24,148 nucleotides of DNA. Source: an uncultured Aquincola sp. (GTDB lineage Bacteria > Pseudomonadota > Gammaproteobacteria > Burkholderiales > Burkholderiaceae). Under the pieces are notes generated by a model that was given only the letters and a program-made list of their open reading frames with translations, had not been told where the DNA came from and searched no databases. Both the position numbers and the translations under genes were made by a program. Shown in pieces: positions 19,912-23,882 of the stretch. The stretch lies in the NCBI GenBank assembly GCA_937883885.1, contig CAKZXL010000676.1:1-24148 (forward strand). Reading direction: 5' to 3'. Position 1 is the first letter of the stretch, and every line of letters begins with the position of its first letter.

Positions 19912-21387
19912 ATGATTTCGCGCGAACCCACCCTTGAACGCCTCGCGCTTGCGCAAGGCCTGTTGCTCGAACCCTTCGGGCTCACCGATGCAGCGCTGAC
20001 CAAGGCCCTGCGCACGATCAGCGCGCACCGCATCGACGACGCGGACCTGTACTTCCAGACCACCCGCCACGAAGGCTGGAGCCTGGAAGAAGGCATCGTC
20101 AAGAGCGGCAGCTTCAGCATCGACCAGGGCGTGGGCGTGCGCGCGGTGGCCGGCGAAAAAACGGCCTTTGCCTATTCCGACGACATCTCCGAAGCCTCGT
20201 TGCTGGACGCGGCGCGCACCGTGCGCACCATCGCCGCTGCCGGGCAAAGCGTGCGCGTGAAAGTGCCGGGCAAGGGCAAGGTGGTGGGCAGCCGCACGTT
20301 GTACGGCCCCACCGACCCCATCGGCACGCTGGACAGCGCGCAGAAGGTGGCGCTGCTGGAAAAAACCGAGAAGCTGGCGCGCAGCAAGGACCCGCGCATC
20401 GTGCAGGTGATGGCCGGCCTGGCCGCCGAGTACGACGTGGTGATGGTGGCGCGCGCCGACGGCACCCGCGCCGCCGACGTGCGGCCGCTGGTGCGGCTGT
20501 CGGTGACCGTGATCGCCGAGCAGACCATCGGCGGCGTGGTGCGGCGTGAAGTGGGCTCGGGCGGCGGCGGTGGCCGTTTCGGCCTCGGCTGGTTCCAGGA
20601 CGCGCAGATCGAGCAGTACGTCGACCAGGCCGTCAACGCGGCGCTCACCAACCTTGAATCGCGCCCCGCGCCGGCCGGCGAGATGACCGTGGTGCTGGGC
20701 CCCGGCTGGCCCGGCATCCTGCTGCACGAAGCCATCGGCCACGGGCTGGAAGGCGACTTCAACCGCAAGGGCAGCAGTGCCTTCAGCGGCCGCATCGGCA
20801 AGCGCGTGGCCGCCAAGGGCGTGACGGTGCTGGACGACGGCACCCTGCCCGACCGCCGCGGCAGCCTGAACGTGGACGACGAAGGCAACGCCACCCAGCG
20901 CACCGTGCTGATCGAGGACGGCATCCTGCGCGGCTACATCCAGGATTCAATGAACGCCCGGCTGACCGGCGTGGCCCCCACCGGCAACGGCCGCCGCGAA
21001 AGCTACGCCCATGTGCCGATGCCGCGCATGACCAACACCTACATGCTGGGCGGCGACAAGACCAAGGAAGAGATCGTCGCCAGCATGAAGCGCGGCCTAT
21101 ATGCCACCAACTTCGGCGGCGGCCAGGTCGACATCACCAGCGGCAAGTTCGTGTTCTCGGCCAGCGAGGCCTTCTGGGTGGAAAACGGCAAGATCCAGTA
21201 CCCGGTCAAGGGCGCCACACTGATCGGCAACGGCCCCGATGCGCTCACCCGCGTGAGCATGATCGGCAACGACATGCAGCTCGATTCCGGCGTGGGCACC
21301 TGCGGCAAAGAGGGCCAGAGCGTGCCGGTGGGCGTGGGCCAGCCGACGCTGCGCATCGACGGCCTGACCGTCGGCGGCACGGCTTGA
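19912..21387 (+). CDS. tldD: Metalloprotease TldD
   Basis: The 491-residue zinc metalloprotease subunit works as a TldD-TldE (PmbA) heterodimer on unfolded peptides and, in other bacteria, on microcin and CcdA-type substrates. The zinc motif HEAIGH is at 272-277 (HExxxH form), and the conserved Cys near the C-terminus (GVGTCGKEGQ, Cys464) matches the third ligand. The region RREVGSGGGGGRFG and the SMNARLTG and YATNFGGGQVDITSG segments are characteristic of TldD rather than PmbA. It is slightly longer than the E. coli protein (481). The TldE partner is not in this window. The tldD stop codon overlaps the -35 of the downstream leader promoter. Confidence 0.95.
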   Translation: MISREPTLERLALAQGLLLEPFGLTDAALTKALRTISAHRIDDADLYFQTTRHEGWSLEEGIVKSGSFSIDQGVGVRAVAGEKTAFAYSDDISEASLLDAARTVRTIAAAGQSVRVKVPGKGKVVGSRTLYGPTDPIGTLDSAQKVALLEKTEKLARSKDPRIVQVMAGLAAEYDVVMVARADGTRAADVRPLVRLSVTVIAEQTIGGVVRREVGSGGGGGRFGLGWFQDAQIEQYVDQAVNAALTNLESRPAPAGEMTVVLGPGWPGILLHEAIGHGLEGDFNRKGSSAFSGRIGKRVAAKGVTVLDDGTLPDRRGSLNVDDEGNATQRTVLIEDGILRGYIQDSMNARLTGVAPTGNGRRESYAHVPMPRMTNTYMLGGDKTKEEIVASMKRGLYATNFGGGQVDITSGKFVFSASEAFWVENGKIQYPVKGATLIGNGPDALTRVSMIGNDMQLDSGVGTCGKEGQSVPVGVGQPTLRIDGLTVGGTA

Positions 21388-21413
21388 CGGCCCGCCGGGC
21401 GCACGGCTACATT
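21384..21413 (+). promoter_or_regulatory. Promoter of the aroG leader (TTGACG-N18-TACATT)
   Basis: TTGACG (21384-21389) overlaps the tldD stop codon and matches the -35 consensus at five of six positions. TACATT (21408-21413) follows at an 18-bp spacing and matches the -10 at four of six. The predicted start of transcription is near 21420, two or three bases before the leader ATG, which would give an almost leaderless leader-peptide mRNA. Confidence 0.6.
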
Positions 21414-21422
21414 CGCCAGGTC

Positions 21423-21497
21423 ATGAAATTCGCCACTTTCTTTTTTGGCTACTTTTGGTTCTCGCACCGCCCAGCGGTTGGAGAGGCAAGCGCGTAG
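21423..21497 (+). CDS. Aromatic-residue-rich leader peptide of aroG (24 aa)
   Basis: ATG at 21423 opens a 24-codon frame ending in TAG at 21495-21497. Residues 3-13 read F-A-T-FFFGYFWF, so six Phe, one Tyr and one Trp fall within the first 13 residues; the tail (SHRPAVGEASA) is ordinary. This is the composition of a regulatory leader peptide of the pheL/trpL kind, in which ribosome stalling at scarce aminoacyl-tRNAs controls a downstream terminator. The gene after it is DAHP synthase, the entry enzyme of aromatic amino acid synthesis, which fits exactly. The start has only AGG two bases upstream, but the promoter places the ATG near the transcript's 5' end. An alternative is that the T-rich run belongs to an A/T-rich dispersed repeat translated by chance. 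Confidence 0.7.
   Translation: MKFATFFFGYFWFSHRPAVGEASA
21470..21479 (+). promoter_or_regulatory. Predicted antiterminator segment within the leader ORF
   Basis: CCCAGCGGTT differs at one base from the 3' arm of the terminator (CCCGGCGGTT, 21543-21552). It can therefore pair with the terminator's 5' arm (21528-21537) at nine of ten positions, with one A-C mismatch. It can instead be sequestered in a small hairpin (ACCGC 21466-21470 with GCGGT 21474-21478). These are the mutually exclusive pairings expected of an attenuator. Confidence 0.55.
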
Positions 21498-21524
21498 CTG
21501 AAAAGAAACGAGCAAACCGAATCC

Positions 21525-21558
21525 AAAAACCGCCGGGCACCCCCCGGCGGTTTTTTTT
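21525..21558 (+). terminator. Rho-independent terminator/attenuator before aroG
   Basis: AAAAACCGCCGGG (21525-21537) pairs perfectly with CCCGGCGGTTTTT (21543-21555) across the loop CACCC, and eight T's follow the GC stem (21551-21558). It lies 27 bases after the leader stop codon and 38 bases before the aroG ATG. It is the strongest intrinsic terminator in the window. It could simply end tldD transcription, but it sits downstream of a good promoter and a leader ORF, which points to attenuation. Confidence 0.85.
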
Positions 21559-21596
21559 CGCCCCTGCACCACCTGCCAACGCCACAGCCCACCGCC

Positions 21597-22715
21597 ATGA
21601 ACAGCACCAGCACCCCCGCCAGCGAAGGCTGGCAAGCGCCGCCGGACCGTACCAGCCAGACCGACGACGAACGCATCAAGGACATCGTGCCGCTGCCGCC
21701 CCCCGAACACCTGATCCGCTTCTTCCCCATCCGCGGCACCGCGATGGAAAGGCTGGTGTCGGACACGCGCCAGTCCATCCGCCGCATCCTGCACAAGCAG
21801 GACGACCGGCTGCTGGTGATCATGGGCCCCTGCTCCATCCACGACCCGGCGGCAGCGCTGGAATACGCCCGCAAGCTCAAGGCCCAGCGCGAGAAGTACG
21901 CCGACACGCTGGAAATCGTGATGCGGGTGTACTTCGAAAAGCCGCGCACCACCGTCGGCTGGAAGGGCCTGATCAACGACCCCTACCTGGACGAGACCTT
22001 CCGCATCGACGAAGGCCTGCGCATCGCGCGCCAGCTGCTGCTGGACATCAACCGCCTGGGCATACCGGCGGGCAGCGAGTTCCTGGACGTGATCTCGCCG
22101 CAGTACATCGGCGACCTGATCGCCTGGGGCGCCATCGGCGCGCGCACCACCGAAAGCCAGGTGCACCGTGAGCTGGCTTCGGGCCTGTCGGCGCCGATCG
22201 GCTTCAAGAACGGTACCGACGGCAACATCAAGATCGCGATGGACGCGATCCAGTCGGCCTCACGGCCGCACCACTTCCTGTCGGTGCACAAGAACGGCCA
22301 GGTGGCCATCGTCGAGACCTCGGGCAATGCCGATTGCCACGTGATCCTGCGCGGCGGCAAGACACCCAACTACAGCGCCGAGCACGTGGCCGACGCCTGC
22401 CGCCAGCTGGAGGCCGCCCAGCTGGACTGCGCGCTGATGGTGGACTGCAGCCATGCCAACAGCAGCAAGCAGCACGAGCGCCAGCTGGATGTGGCCCGCG
22501 ACGTGGCGCAGCAACTGCGCGACGGCGGCCGCTGCATCTTCGGCGTGATGGTGGAAAGCCACCTGAAGGCCGGCGCGCAGAAGTTCAACGCCGGCAAGGA
22601 CGACCCCGCCCAACTGGCCTACGGCCAGAGCATCACCGACGCCTGCCTGGGCTGGGACGATTCGCTGGAGTGCCTGGAGGTGCTGAGCGCTGCCGTGAAG
22701 GCCCGGCGCGGGTAA
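21597..22715 (+). CDS. aroG: 3-deoxy-7-phosphoheptulonate (DAHP) synthase, class I (AroG/AroF type)
   Basis: The 372-residue cytoplasmic enzyme condenses phosphoenolpyruvate and erythrose 4-phosphate in the first step of the shikimate pathway. Signatures are the metal and substrate motif IMGPCSIHD (Cys79), RVYFEKPRTTVGWKGLINDP, GAIGARTTESQVHRELASGLSAPIGFKNGTDG, HVILRGGKTPNY and VDCSHANSSKQ. Residues that form the Phe inhibitor site in E. coli AroG (INDP region and the Ser in SGLS) are conserved, but which aromatic acid inhibits this enzyme cannot be settled by eye. An N-terminal extension of about 20 residues precedes the core. No Shine-Dalgarno is visible before the ATG at 21597. The attenuator-like leader lies directly upstream. 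Confidence 0.95.
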   Translation: MNSTSTPASEGWQAPPDRTSQTDDERIKDIVPLPPPEHLIRFFPIRGTAMERLVSDTRQSIRRILHKQDDRLLVIMGPCSIHDPAAALEYARKLKAQREKYADTLEIVMRVYFEKPRTTVGWKGLINDPYLDETFRIDEGLRIARQLLLDINRLGIPAGSEFLDVISPQYIGDLIAWGAIGARTTESQVHRELASGLSAPIGFKNGTDGNIKIAMDAIQSASRPHHFLSVHKNGQVAIVETSGNADCHVILRGGKTPNYSAEHVADACRQLEAAQLDCALMVDCSHANSSKQHERQLDVARDVAQQLRDGGRCIFGVMVESHLKAGAQKFNAGKDDPAQLAYGQSITDACLGWDDSLECLEVLSAAVKARRG

Positions 22716-22810: not shown

Positions 22811-23656
22811 ATGCTTGCTGAAGCCTACTTCGACGAAAGCGGAACCAACGACGACAGCAGGAACTTGTGTCTTGGCGGGTACGTCTTCGAAGGTGCATCG
22901 ATTGCCGCCTTCGAAGACGACTGGCAGGAAATGCTGCGACGCTATGAGCTGCAGTATTTCCACATGCGTGAGTTCAATCAGCAGCGCGGCAAAGGCGTGT
23001 ATGGACACCTGAGTACGCCCGCTCGGCAGGCTGCCCTTGGCGAAGCGATCGGAATCATTGAAAGGCACGCCCTCTGCGGCTTCGCGTTTTCAGTCGAGAA
23101 GACTGCCTTCGACGATATCGCTGCTGGTAGCCCCTGGTCGAAGCAGTACGCGTTCCTCGCGAACCAGGCTTTTTATGGCATCGAGGAGACGTTCAAGCAT
23201 CACGGGCCGGGCTCGGTGAACTATGTGTTCGAGCAAGGCGCCCACGGATGGGGCAATGCGGCGAAAGTATTCCAAGAGGCGAAGGCGATCCCGGCGTTGA
23301 AGGACAAGTACCGTCTTGGCGAGCTTCGGCAAGAGCCCAAGTCCGGCGCCATCCATTTGCAAGCAGCCGACCTTTTGGTCTGGTCAACGCTGCGCGAGCG
23401 AAGGCGCGTGGATAGGGGTGAGCCTCTTGGGAGTCACGAAGAATTCAATCGACTGCGAGGCGTGAAGCTCCACGTTCACCATTGGGATTCCGAAGCCGGG
23501 GAGATCATCCAGTGGCTGCGAAACGTGGTTGGCCGTGACACCGCCTTCATGGAGTGGCTTCAAATGCACGCCACAAGGGAGTTCCTGCTGTTCCTTCGAG
23601 CGGACGGTCAAAATGCTGTCGACTACTTCAGAAGCGTTTTCAGAGCGAGCCGCTGA
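22811..23656 (+). CDS. DUF3800 domain protein
   Basis: The 281-residue protein has the DUF3800 landmarks: the N-terminal AYFDESG (Asp8, Glu9), YFHMREF (49-55), NYVFEQGAHGWGNA (~137-150) and the C-terminal IHLQAADLLVW (181-191, Asp187). The spaced acidic residues suggest an RNase H-like nuclease fold (inference). DUF3800 proteins are often found in mobile and defence-related contexts, but their activity is not well established. A+T content is visibly higher than in aroG: by hand count the row 23041-23100 is 33/60 G+C against 41/60 for 22501-22560. This suggests transfer. The 3' end overlaps the next gene by 44 bp, so the two are coupled. The start is the ATG immediately before the AYFDESG strand. 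Confidence 0.85.
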   Translation: MLAEAYFDESGTNDDSRNLCLGGYVFEGASIAAFEDDWQEMLRRYELQYFHMREFNQQRGKGVYGHLSTPARQAALGEAIGIIERHALCGFAFSVEKTAFDDIAAGSPWSKQYAFLANQAFYGIEETFKHHGPGSVNYVFEQGAHGWGNAAKVFQEAKAIPALKDKYRLGELRQEPKSGAIHLQAADLLVWSTLRERRRVDRGEPLGSHEEFNRLRGVKLHVHHWDSEAGEIIQWLRNVVGRDTAFMEWLQMHATREFLLFLRADGQNAVDYFRSVFRASR

Positions 23657-23882
23657 CGCCAGCGCATCGGTGGCAGACGCCGCCGACGTGCTGAATTTGC
23701 CGCTGCCACACGTCTTGAACCTGCTGAGTTCGGGCGTCCTTCCGTTCCACAAGGTGGGCGGGGATCGGCGAGTCAGCGTTTCCGCCTTGATGGCCTACAA
23801 ACTTGCTTTCGAGCAACGCCGCTCCGCCGCGCTGGAAACGCTGGCTGCGCAAGCTCAAGCCCTGCAGATGGGCTATGAGTGA
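23613..23882 (+). CDS. Excisionase-like helix-turn-helix protein (antitoxin-like)
   Basis: The 89-residue protein contains a MerR/excisionase-type winged HTH: SVADAADVLNLPLPHVLNLLSSGVLPFHKVGGDRRVSVSALMAYK (~22-66), then an Ala/Gln-rich C-terminal helix (QRRSAALETLAAQAQALQMGY). This layout of HTH, AYK and a helix with RRxAALxxLAxxAQ is that of antitoxin-like proteins usually encoded beside PIN-domain toxins; here the neighbour is DUF3800 instead. The start is ATG 23613, inside the DUF3800 frame; a longer start at 23529 would add sequence antisense in style. It probably binds DNA and autoregulates its operon (inference). Its last codons overlap the next ATG. Confidence 0.75.
   Translation: MLSTTSEAFSERAADASASVADAADVLNLPLPHVLNLLSSGVLPFHKVGGDRRVSVSALMAYKLAFEQRRSAALETLAAQAQALQMGYE

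Follow-up and report, generated by a model that had tools for sequence, protein, structure and literature searches.

3-Deoxy-D-arabino-heptulosonate 7-phosphate (DAHP) synthase is the first enzyme of aromatic amino acid synthesis and sets the flow into all aromatic compounds; in Escherichia coli its control lies with the TyrR repressor and with feedback inhibition. Here we describe the region upstream of a DAHP synthase gene (aroG) from an uncultured Aquincola sp. of the Burkholderiales (GenBank assembly GCA_937883885.1, contig CAKZXL010000676.1, positions 1 to 24,148 of the forward strand; this whole stretch of 24,148 nucleotides is called the window). Judging from its sequence and that of its relatives, the region 21384-21558 is very probably a ribosome-mediated transcription attenuator of aroG. 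Among described systems, the E. coli pheA leader (Rfam RF01859, Phe_leader) likewise combines a Phe-rich leader open reading frame (ORF), alternative helices and a terminator, whereas the element described here precedes aroG, has Tyr and Trp codons and probably has no 5' untranslated region (UTR). RF01859 gave a full-length sub-threshold match at 21422-21560 (29.1 bits, E 0.0043 in a 301-base search), short of its gathering score of 55, and had no gathering match in 24 related loci. Over the leader, neither the window nor these loci gave a match to any Rfam family at its gathering score; the sole gathering matches in the loci were two group II intron domains in L001, outside the leader. A weak match to the Burkholderia small RNA ncS54 (12.7 bits), considered as a lead to an expressed short transcript, was dropped as chance, as it did not reach the gathering score in Burkholderia loci.

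Leaders before DAHP synthase genes are in print from two distant groups. In the portions of the sources available, Corynebacterium glutamicum aroF has a putative leader with Phe-Tyr-Phe before the gene (PMC4046766), and Acholeplasma uORFC-13-1, an upstream ORF containing one or more Phe codons, together with an intrinsic terminator, lies exclusively upstream of the DAHP synthase gene (PMC8632094). Both are likened here by description only: the former shares the gene type and the Phe-Tyr-Phe motif but belongs to an actinobacterium, and the latter is known from 24 examples in Acholeplasma and environmental sequences only. In Sinorhizobium meliloti, the accessible text on trpL/rnTrpL reports an attenuator RNA that starts at the ATG of the leader ORF; that system concerns Trp and controls trpE(G), and its 5' end is reported, whereas the one here is predicted (PMC7298713). 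A comparative study of proteobacterial regulons names TyrR, TrpR and attenuators at trp and pheA, and in its available part does not name an aroG attenuator (PMC5343134). The main text of a study of short attenuated 5' UTRs in Burkholderia cenocepacia, as far as it was at hand, mentions neither aroG nor DAHP nor phosphoheptulonate (PMC5688073), and a word search only of a paper on B. cenocepacia transcription start sites gave no match to our subject terms (PMC4603805). Our literature search, which largely excluded subscription papers, returned no report of such an element for Burkholderiales aroG. An earlier reading made from the sequence alone had put the locus forward as something undescribed; within the reach of our search this holds for Burkholderiales aroG, and it does not hold for the principle, given the partly seen reports on aroF of C. 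glutamicum (PMC4046766) and Acholeplasma (PMC8632094). The element is a widespread new case of a known attenuator type, with an unusual predicted leaderless start.

The locus comprises the following features:

ends at 21387, + strand: tldD, preceding the promoter-like pair
21384..21413, + strand: predicted promoter, -35 TTGACG (21384-21389), 18-nt spacer, -10 TACATT (21408-21413)
21423..21497 (stop included), + strand: leader peptide ORF of 24 codons, MKFATFFFGYFWFSHRPAVGEASA and stop, with corresponding leaders in relatives
21450..21461, + strand: conserved stall cluster Tyr10-Phe11-Trp12-Phe13 (TAC TTT TGG TTC); in the folding model a ribosomal A site here would free region 2
21459..21470, + strand: region 1, TTCTC (21459-21463) and ACCGC (21466-21470), which can pair with and hide region 2 (TTCTC:GAGAG helix)
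21474..21485, + strand: region 2, GCGGTTGGAGAG, the antiterminator strand within the leader ORF, able to form a duplex with region 3
21522..21537, + strand: region 3, TCCAAAAACCGCCGGG, used both by the antiterminator (pairing with region 2) and by the terminator, as its 5' arm
21543..21558, + strand: region 4, the terminator 3' arm CCCGGCGG and the T run (21551-21558)
21597..22715, + strand: aroG, class I DAHP synthase of 372 amino acids (NCBIfam, Pfam), the putative controlled gene

The sequence-only reading had named a promoter pair TTGACG-N18-TACATT, a 24-codon ORF with six Phe, one Tyr and one Trp, and a 13-bp terminator stem followed by eight T's with aroG 38 bases on, all of which we found in place. 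The aromatic residues of the ORF (21423-21497) are Phe at positions 3, 6, 7, 8, 11 and 13, Tyr at 10 and Trp at 12. This density of eight aromatics in 12 codons is beyond chance: 1000 dinucleotide shuffles of the 500-nt upstream region gave at most five in any ORF. The intrinsic terminator occupies 21525-21558, with 21525-21537 pairing with 21543-21555 (13 bp, 8 of them G-C), and the ATG of aroG at 21597 lies 38 bases past the T run. The fold of 21420-21600 (181 nt) has a z of -3.9, with none of 200 shuffles equally stable, and the promoter pair is the single hit in 2 kb against 0.2 expected. None of the NCBIfam models matched the leader peptide. The downstream product is a class I DAHP synthase (NCBIfam aroFGH TIGR00034, 525 bits, cutoff 173; Pfam PF00793). 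The name aroG is less certain: the NCBIfam AroG model scored 548, under its cutoff of 568, and a subfamily model named Trp-sensitive AroH scored 500, above its cutoff of 463.

An ORF with control codons thus stands before a biosynthetic gene, with a terminator between ORF and gene, as in attenuators; folding predicts an antiterminator that excludes the terminator and becomes accessible once a ribosome stalls at the control codons. Transcription would begin no more than ~3 nt from the leader AUG, giving the ribosome an mRNA with next to no 5' UTR to load on. With ample charged tRNA for Phe, Tyr and Trp, the ribosome would pass the aromatic cluster, reach the stop codon and cover region 2; region 3 would then pair with region 4, and transcription would end at ~21558. 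If an aromatic tRNA is in short supply, the ribosome would stall on the Tyr-Phe-Trp-Phe cluster and cover region 1, upon which region 2 (GCGGTTGGA) could pair with region 3 (TCC...AACCGC); no terminator would form and aroG would be transcribed. Here we infer the transcription start, the stalling, the termination and the response to each amino acid.

To ask how far this anatomy is shared, AroG was searched in 60 related genomes, 56 of which had a match, and in named genome contigs, from which the best 80 loci were used; leaders were sought up to 500 nt upstream of the AroG matches. In all 36 genomes of the same family (G001-G036), the best AroG match was preceded by an aromatic-rich short ORF, and a leader preceded none of the 25 weaker DAHP synthase matches of same-family genomes, all of which were fetched. 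One weaker match (L149) with an ORF of five aromatics and no terminator was set aside. The element would mark which of several isozyme genes falls under attenuator control. In other families of the order, 7 of the 20 genomes with a match had the leader (24 were searched, 4 of them without AroG), and so did 66 of the best 80 named loci. Of the loci without a counted leader, L063 is cut at a contig end and L066 was left uncounted. The latter, from a metagenome relative, has before aroG a terminator and a Phe-rich ORF without Tyr or Trp (MKNFLQFGFFKNFLTAPGAAQRV); this ORF is probably a divergent leader and possibly a Phe-only version of it.

Duplicates or near-duplicates (L001, L050, L057, L095), false picks (L081, L149) and L066 were dropped, L037 was included manually and L020 was reassigned to a GTG start. 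The resulting 106 non-redundant leaders all contain Phe (2 to 6 each), 105 contain Tyr and 89 Trp. ATG is the start codon in 105 and GTG in one, with an ORF picker that preferred ATG. A terminator hairpin with a T run is present at 105 of the 106 loci. The aromatic codons thus stood the comparison with relatives: in front of aroG, the leader with these codons, the antiterminator strand and the terminator persist amid otherwise drifting sequence. These conserved parts strongly support the earlier proposal that aroG may be controlled by translation of the leader. The aligned sequences themselves show the anatomy and its conservation, the complementary and covarying alternative helices, and the constant association with AroG.

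The conserved RNA elements are consistent with a switch between two folds. In 94 of 103 leaders, a GGCGG-type element lies within the ORF, 6 to 16 nt past the last aromatic codon; it resembles the terminator 3' arm and is complementary to the 5' arm, so that an antiterminator can form. The peptide tail keeps Gly-Gly, Ala-Gly or Leu-Ala, presumably because these residues spell the RNA element and not because of a peptide function. The duplex of regions 2 and 3 (2:3) in the window has a stability of -17.4 kcal/mol (z -3.1 against shuffles), and its stability exceeds the mean of the leader's own shuffles in 103 of 105 leaders (mean z -2.8). In an enlarged set of 189 leaders, 185 of them with a parsed terminator, at least 6 of 7 pairs form between regions 2 and 3 in 161 of the 185. 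Permuting the arms among sequences, with the best window rechosen each time, lowered the mean score from 9.61 to 9.21 (sd 0.04), and none of 300 permutations scored as high; loci without AroG (L261, L266-L268) and L202, L215, L219, L263 and L264 were left out of this set and of the -10 set described below.

Covariation was examined on two alignments, A1 (77 leaders) and A2 (63 sequences from many families). On A2, where no window was chosen, pairing in the 2:3 helix amounts to 90.7% and 18 cells show two-sided change, a number reached by 0 of 500 shuffles, and sliding the partner strand gave at most 53% pairing; one pair is U-A in 28 sequences and C-G in 15. The terminator on A2 is 97% paired with 29 two-sided-change cells. 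Support for the 2:3 helix is weaker on A1 (85.8% paired, with at least as many two-sided cells in 15 of 500 shuffles), in part because leaders of the window's type are aligned one base out of register. In A1, the TTCTC:GAGAG helix that would mask region 2 shows 93.8% pairing, and 3 of its 5 pairs have two-sided change (4 cells in total). Individual compensations are also seen: CCGCT in the terminator arm goes with AGCGG in the leader (L115, L121), and CCGCCTC with GAGGCGG or AAGGCGG (L097, L101). The strongest single co-change was noted in L115:455-617, where an extended terminator arm, ACCGCTGGTGGGGC, has its counterpart GCCCCATTAGCGGC in the leader ORF, giving a 13-bp antiterminator.

Where a stalled ribosome would expose the antiterminator was estimated with a footprint model, in which the leading edge lies 12 nt past the first base of the A-site codon and the transcript ends just after region 3; the values are folding estimates, not kinetics. 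Of 185 leaders, 174 have one or more aromatic codons at which a stall gives a chance of 2:3 pairing above 0.5. Mean pairing is 0.94-0.96 with the A site 4-7 codons before region 2, 0.87-0.88 at 8-11 codons, 0.65 at 3 codons and lower nearer. The Tyr-Phe-Trp-Phe cluster of the window lies 5-8 codons before region 2; here pairing is estimated at 0.03 without a ribosome, 0.8 for stalls from Phe6 to Phe13, and 0 at the stop codon. Effective codons include all three aromatics in 113 of 185 leaders, Phe and Tyr in 47, and none in 11. Since Tyr, Phe and Trp codons all lie in the stretch where a stall would expose the antiterminator, shortage of any one of these amino acids might switch aroG on.

Covariance models built from A1 (R1) and A2 (R2) extended the taxonomic range; their E-values are rough. 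R1 gave 103 matches in 102 of 399 genomes of the order, and all 103 places were read: 99, from 14 families, have AroG directly downstream, and the remaining 4 are partial, covering the terminator end only. The ORF picked by script was accepted in 94 of the 99 loci. The five set aside all belong to one family (f44), in which L202 and L219 have a good ORF on inspection, the frame of L215 is broken, and L263 and L264 retain three aromatics and one, respectively. In L215, L263 and L264, the terminator and the GCGG element are kept while aromatic codons or frame are lost, which may be natural decay of the sensor or, for the frame, an assembly error. Among 369 genomes of the class, R1 matched nine, three of them from the family of the window; there were full-length matches in f63 (three) and f68 (one), all four before AroG, and two partial ones without AroG. 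With R2, 35 of 299 genomes of the phylum had a full-length match (E 1.3e-6 or better), each with AroG downstream, and 17 of the 35 lie outside the class (f253, f256, f260), with leaders such as MITVATNYFWYFSYDSSLAAGGSRSI. Weak R2 matches in the class and phylum searches had AroG at none of the 20 distinct places fetched (L282-L294, L321-L328; one in both). The raw R2 tallies (55 of 369 in the class, 92 of 299 in the phylum) were therefore rejected as counts of the element, weak or partial matches being mostly chance.

An RNA element of ~140 nt thus seems, from these comparisons, to do part of the control of DAHP synthase in many Burkholderiales and in some other members of the phylum. That a single old family of leaderless attenuators controls the first step of the shikimate pathway in two or more classes of the phylum, as a three-input sensor, is a real possibility that we stop just short of favouring. 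The element also suggests where control could be relieved in strains producing aromatic compounds.

The predicted start of the leader mRNA rests on promoter geometry. With a TATAAT-like hexamer as criterion (T1, A2 and T6 required, at least 4 of 6 matching), the -10 box ends 6-9 nt before the leader start codon (ATG in 187, GTG in 4) in 122 of 191 leaders, against 0 to 9 for seven other 4-nt windows; 69 lack such a near box. TG stands one base upstream in 99 of the 122, and none of the 122 has a Shine-Dalgarno pairing below -6 kcal/mol. At 44 related aroG starts a Shine-Dalgarno is present in 25, whereas leaders of those loci have it in 0 of 42. The near -10 box without Shine-Dalgarno, seen in these 122 leaders, makes a leaderless mRNA probable. 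The leader peptide of C. glutamicum ilvBNC, which unlike the aromatic leader here concerns branched-chain amino acids, is reportedly made without a ribosome binding site. The TG-preceded box resembles the extended -10 with consensus TGnTA given, in the portion of the source at hand, for mapped leaderless mRNAs of Bradyrhizobium japonicum (PMC4842269). In the window, the -10 ends 9 nt before the ATG and has no TGn extension, which would allow a 5' UTR of up to ~3 nt; the predicted transcription start is ~21420-21423, with little or no 5' UTR. Outside the class, none of the 22 loci examined contains the strict hexamer. A CTA-type box, first spotted by eye and afterwards listed, occurs in f253 and f256: in 14 of 16 loci it ends 7-8 nt ahead of the ATG and has TGACA upstream, and in the two remaining loci, L308 and L312, it is a further in-frame ATG, upstream of the assigned one, that lies at this spacing. 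Leaders of the Burkholderia and Oxalobacteraceae types instead have their -10, by eye, ~25-40 nt upstream. Together, these leaders form a large natural series for studying ribosome loading and stalling on mRNAs that start at or near the start codon. The aroG start of the window itself (21572-21599) has no Shine-Dalgarno evident by eye, in contrast to the 25 of 44 related starts.

Several observations weigh against an attenuator of this kind, or against its generality. A number of AroG loci have no leader, among them three Polynucleobacter, two Cupriavidus (77-78% AroG) and L082, and, among further named loci, two Enterovibrio, L094 and L079-L081 (metagenome loci labelled as other phyla). Only 102 of the 399 sampled genomes of the order match R1, and the leader decays in f44. 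In the footprint model, the antiterminator is favoured in 0 of 103 leaders with the ribosome at the stop codon, a result nearly built in because region 2 then lies under the footprint. Without a ribosome it is favoured in 86 of 185 (43 of 103 in the smaller set), so that nearly half of the leaders would need a ribosome reaching the stop codon for termination. When 110 non-majority arms were pooled, a leader's own arm scored no better than the commonest arm (9.32 vs 9.41), so that the covariation signal comes from two large lineages plus a few clear compensations. Neither the number of 2:3 pairs with two-sided changes nor that of further pair types was above shuffles (reached by 336 and 167 of 500, respectively), and kinship alone can exceed such shuffles. 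A simple terminator scan of the window listed 0 terminators against 1.8 expected, the terminator being seen by folding. Finally, 56 pairs of similar leaders differ by 238 non-synonymous codon changes against 123 synonymous ones.

The wide conservation of the ORF could also mean that its product acts as a small protein, alone or in trans like S. meliloti peTrpL, with regulation of aroG secondary; indeed, attenuator leader RNA and peptide can act in trans according to the available part of that report (PMC7298713). We consider this very unlikely, as what is conserved is the aromatic content and the codons that carry the helices, while lengths and tails vary and non-synonymous change is frequent. 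Silent positions point the same way, being fixed at or near sites where RNA pairing would need them: in leaders with Phe-Trp-Phe, TTT precedes Trp in 62 of 66 and TTC follows it in 61 of 66, the TTC belonging to the TTCTC helix. The leaders also favour a Phe codon that is otherwise rare, in line with an attenuator: on average, 68% of their Phe codons are TTT, against 14% in aroG, and the share is higher in the leader in 92 of 93 loci; the preference may serve slow reading or the RNA itself. A second explanation starts from the neighbouring gene, which ends at 21387 and is present in the flank of 72 of 96 leader loci: the terminator would merely end the tldD transcript, the ORF would be a by-product and aroG would have a constitutive promoter of its own. 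This is highly improbable, since the 24 other loci (some with short flanks) keep leader and terminator without tldD in the flank, the three Polynucleobacter loci keep tldD without a leader, AroG is the constant partner across families (99 of 103 matches), and a tldD terminator accounts for neither the aromatic codons nor the 2:3 complementarity. A riboswitch-like version of the same anatomy, with a protein or small molecule as sensor and the ORF a bystander, would fit the structured leader and the antiterminators favoured without a ribosome, but is scarcely probable given that no Rfam family reached gathering score over the leader, either here or in the 24 related loci, and that, by eye, no RNA core is conserved outside the ORF and the pairing elements.

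Some further features of these loci may be of interest in their own right. Of three Cupriavidus records (L044, L053, L100), the two with 77-78% AroG lack a leader and the other, with 63% AroG, has one; this pattern possibly reflects horizontal gain of an aroG without its attenuator. Downstream of aroG in the window, 22811-23882 holds a DUF3800 ORF (Pfam PF12686) and an HTH_17 ORF (PF12728), perhaps a mobile unit. In the closest of the genomes compared (L001:2739-3015), matches to group II intron D1-D4 RNA lie shortly past aroG.

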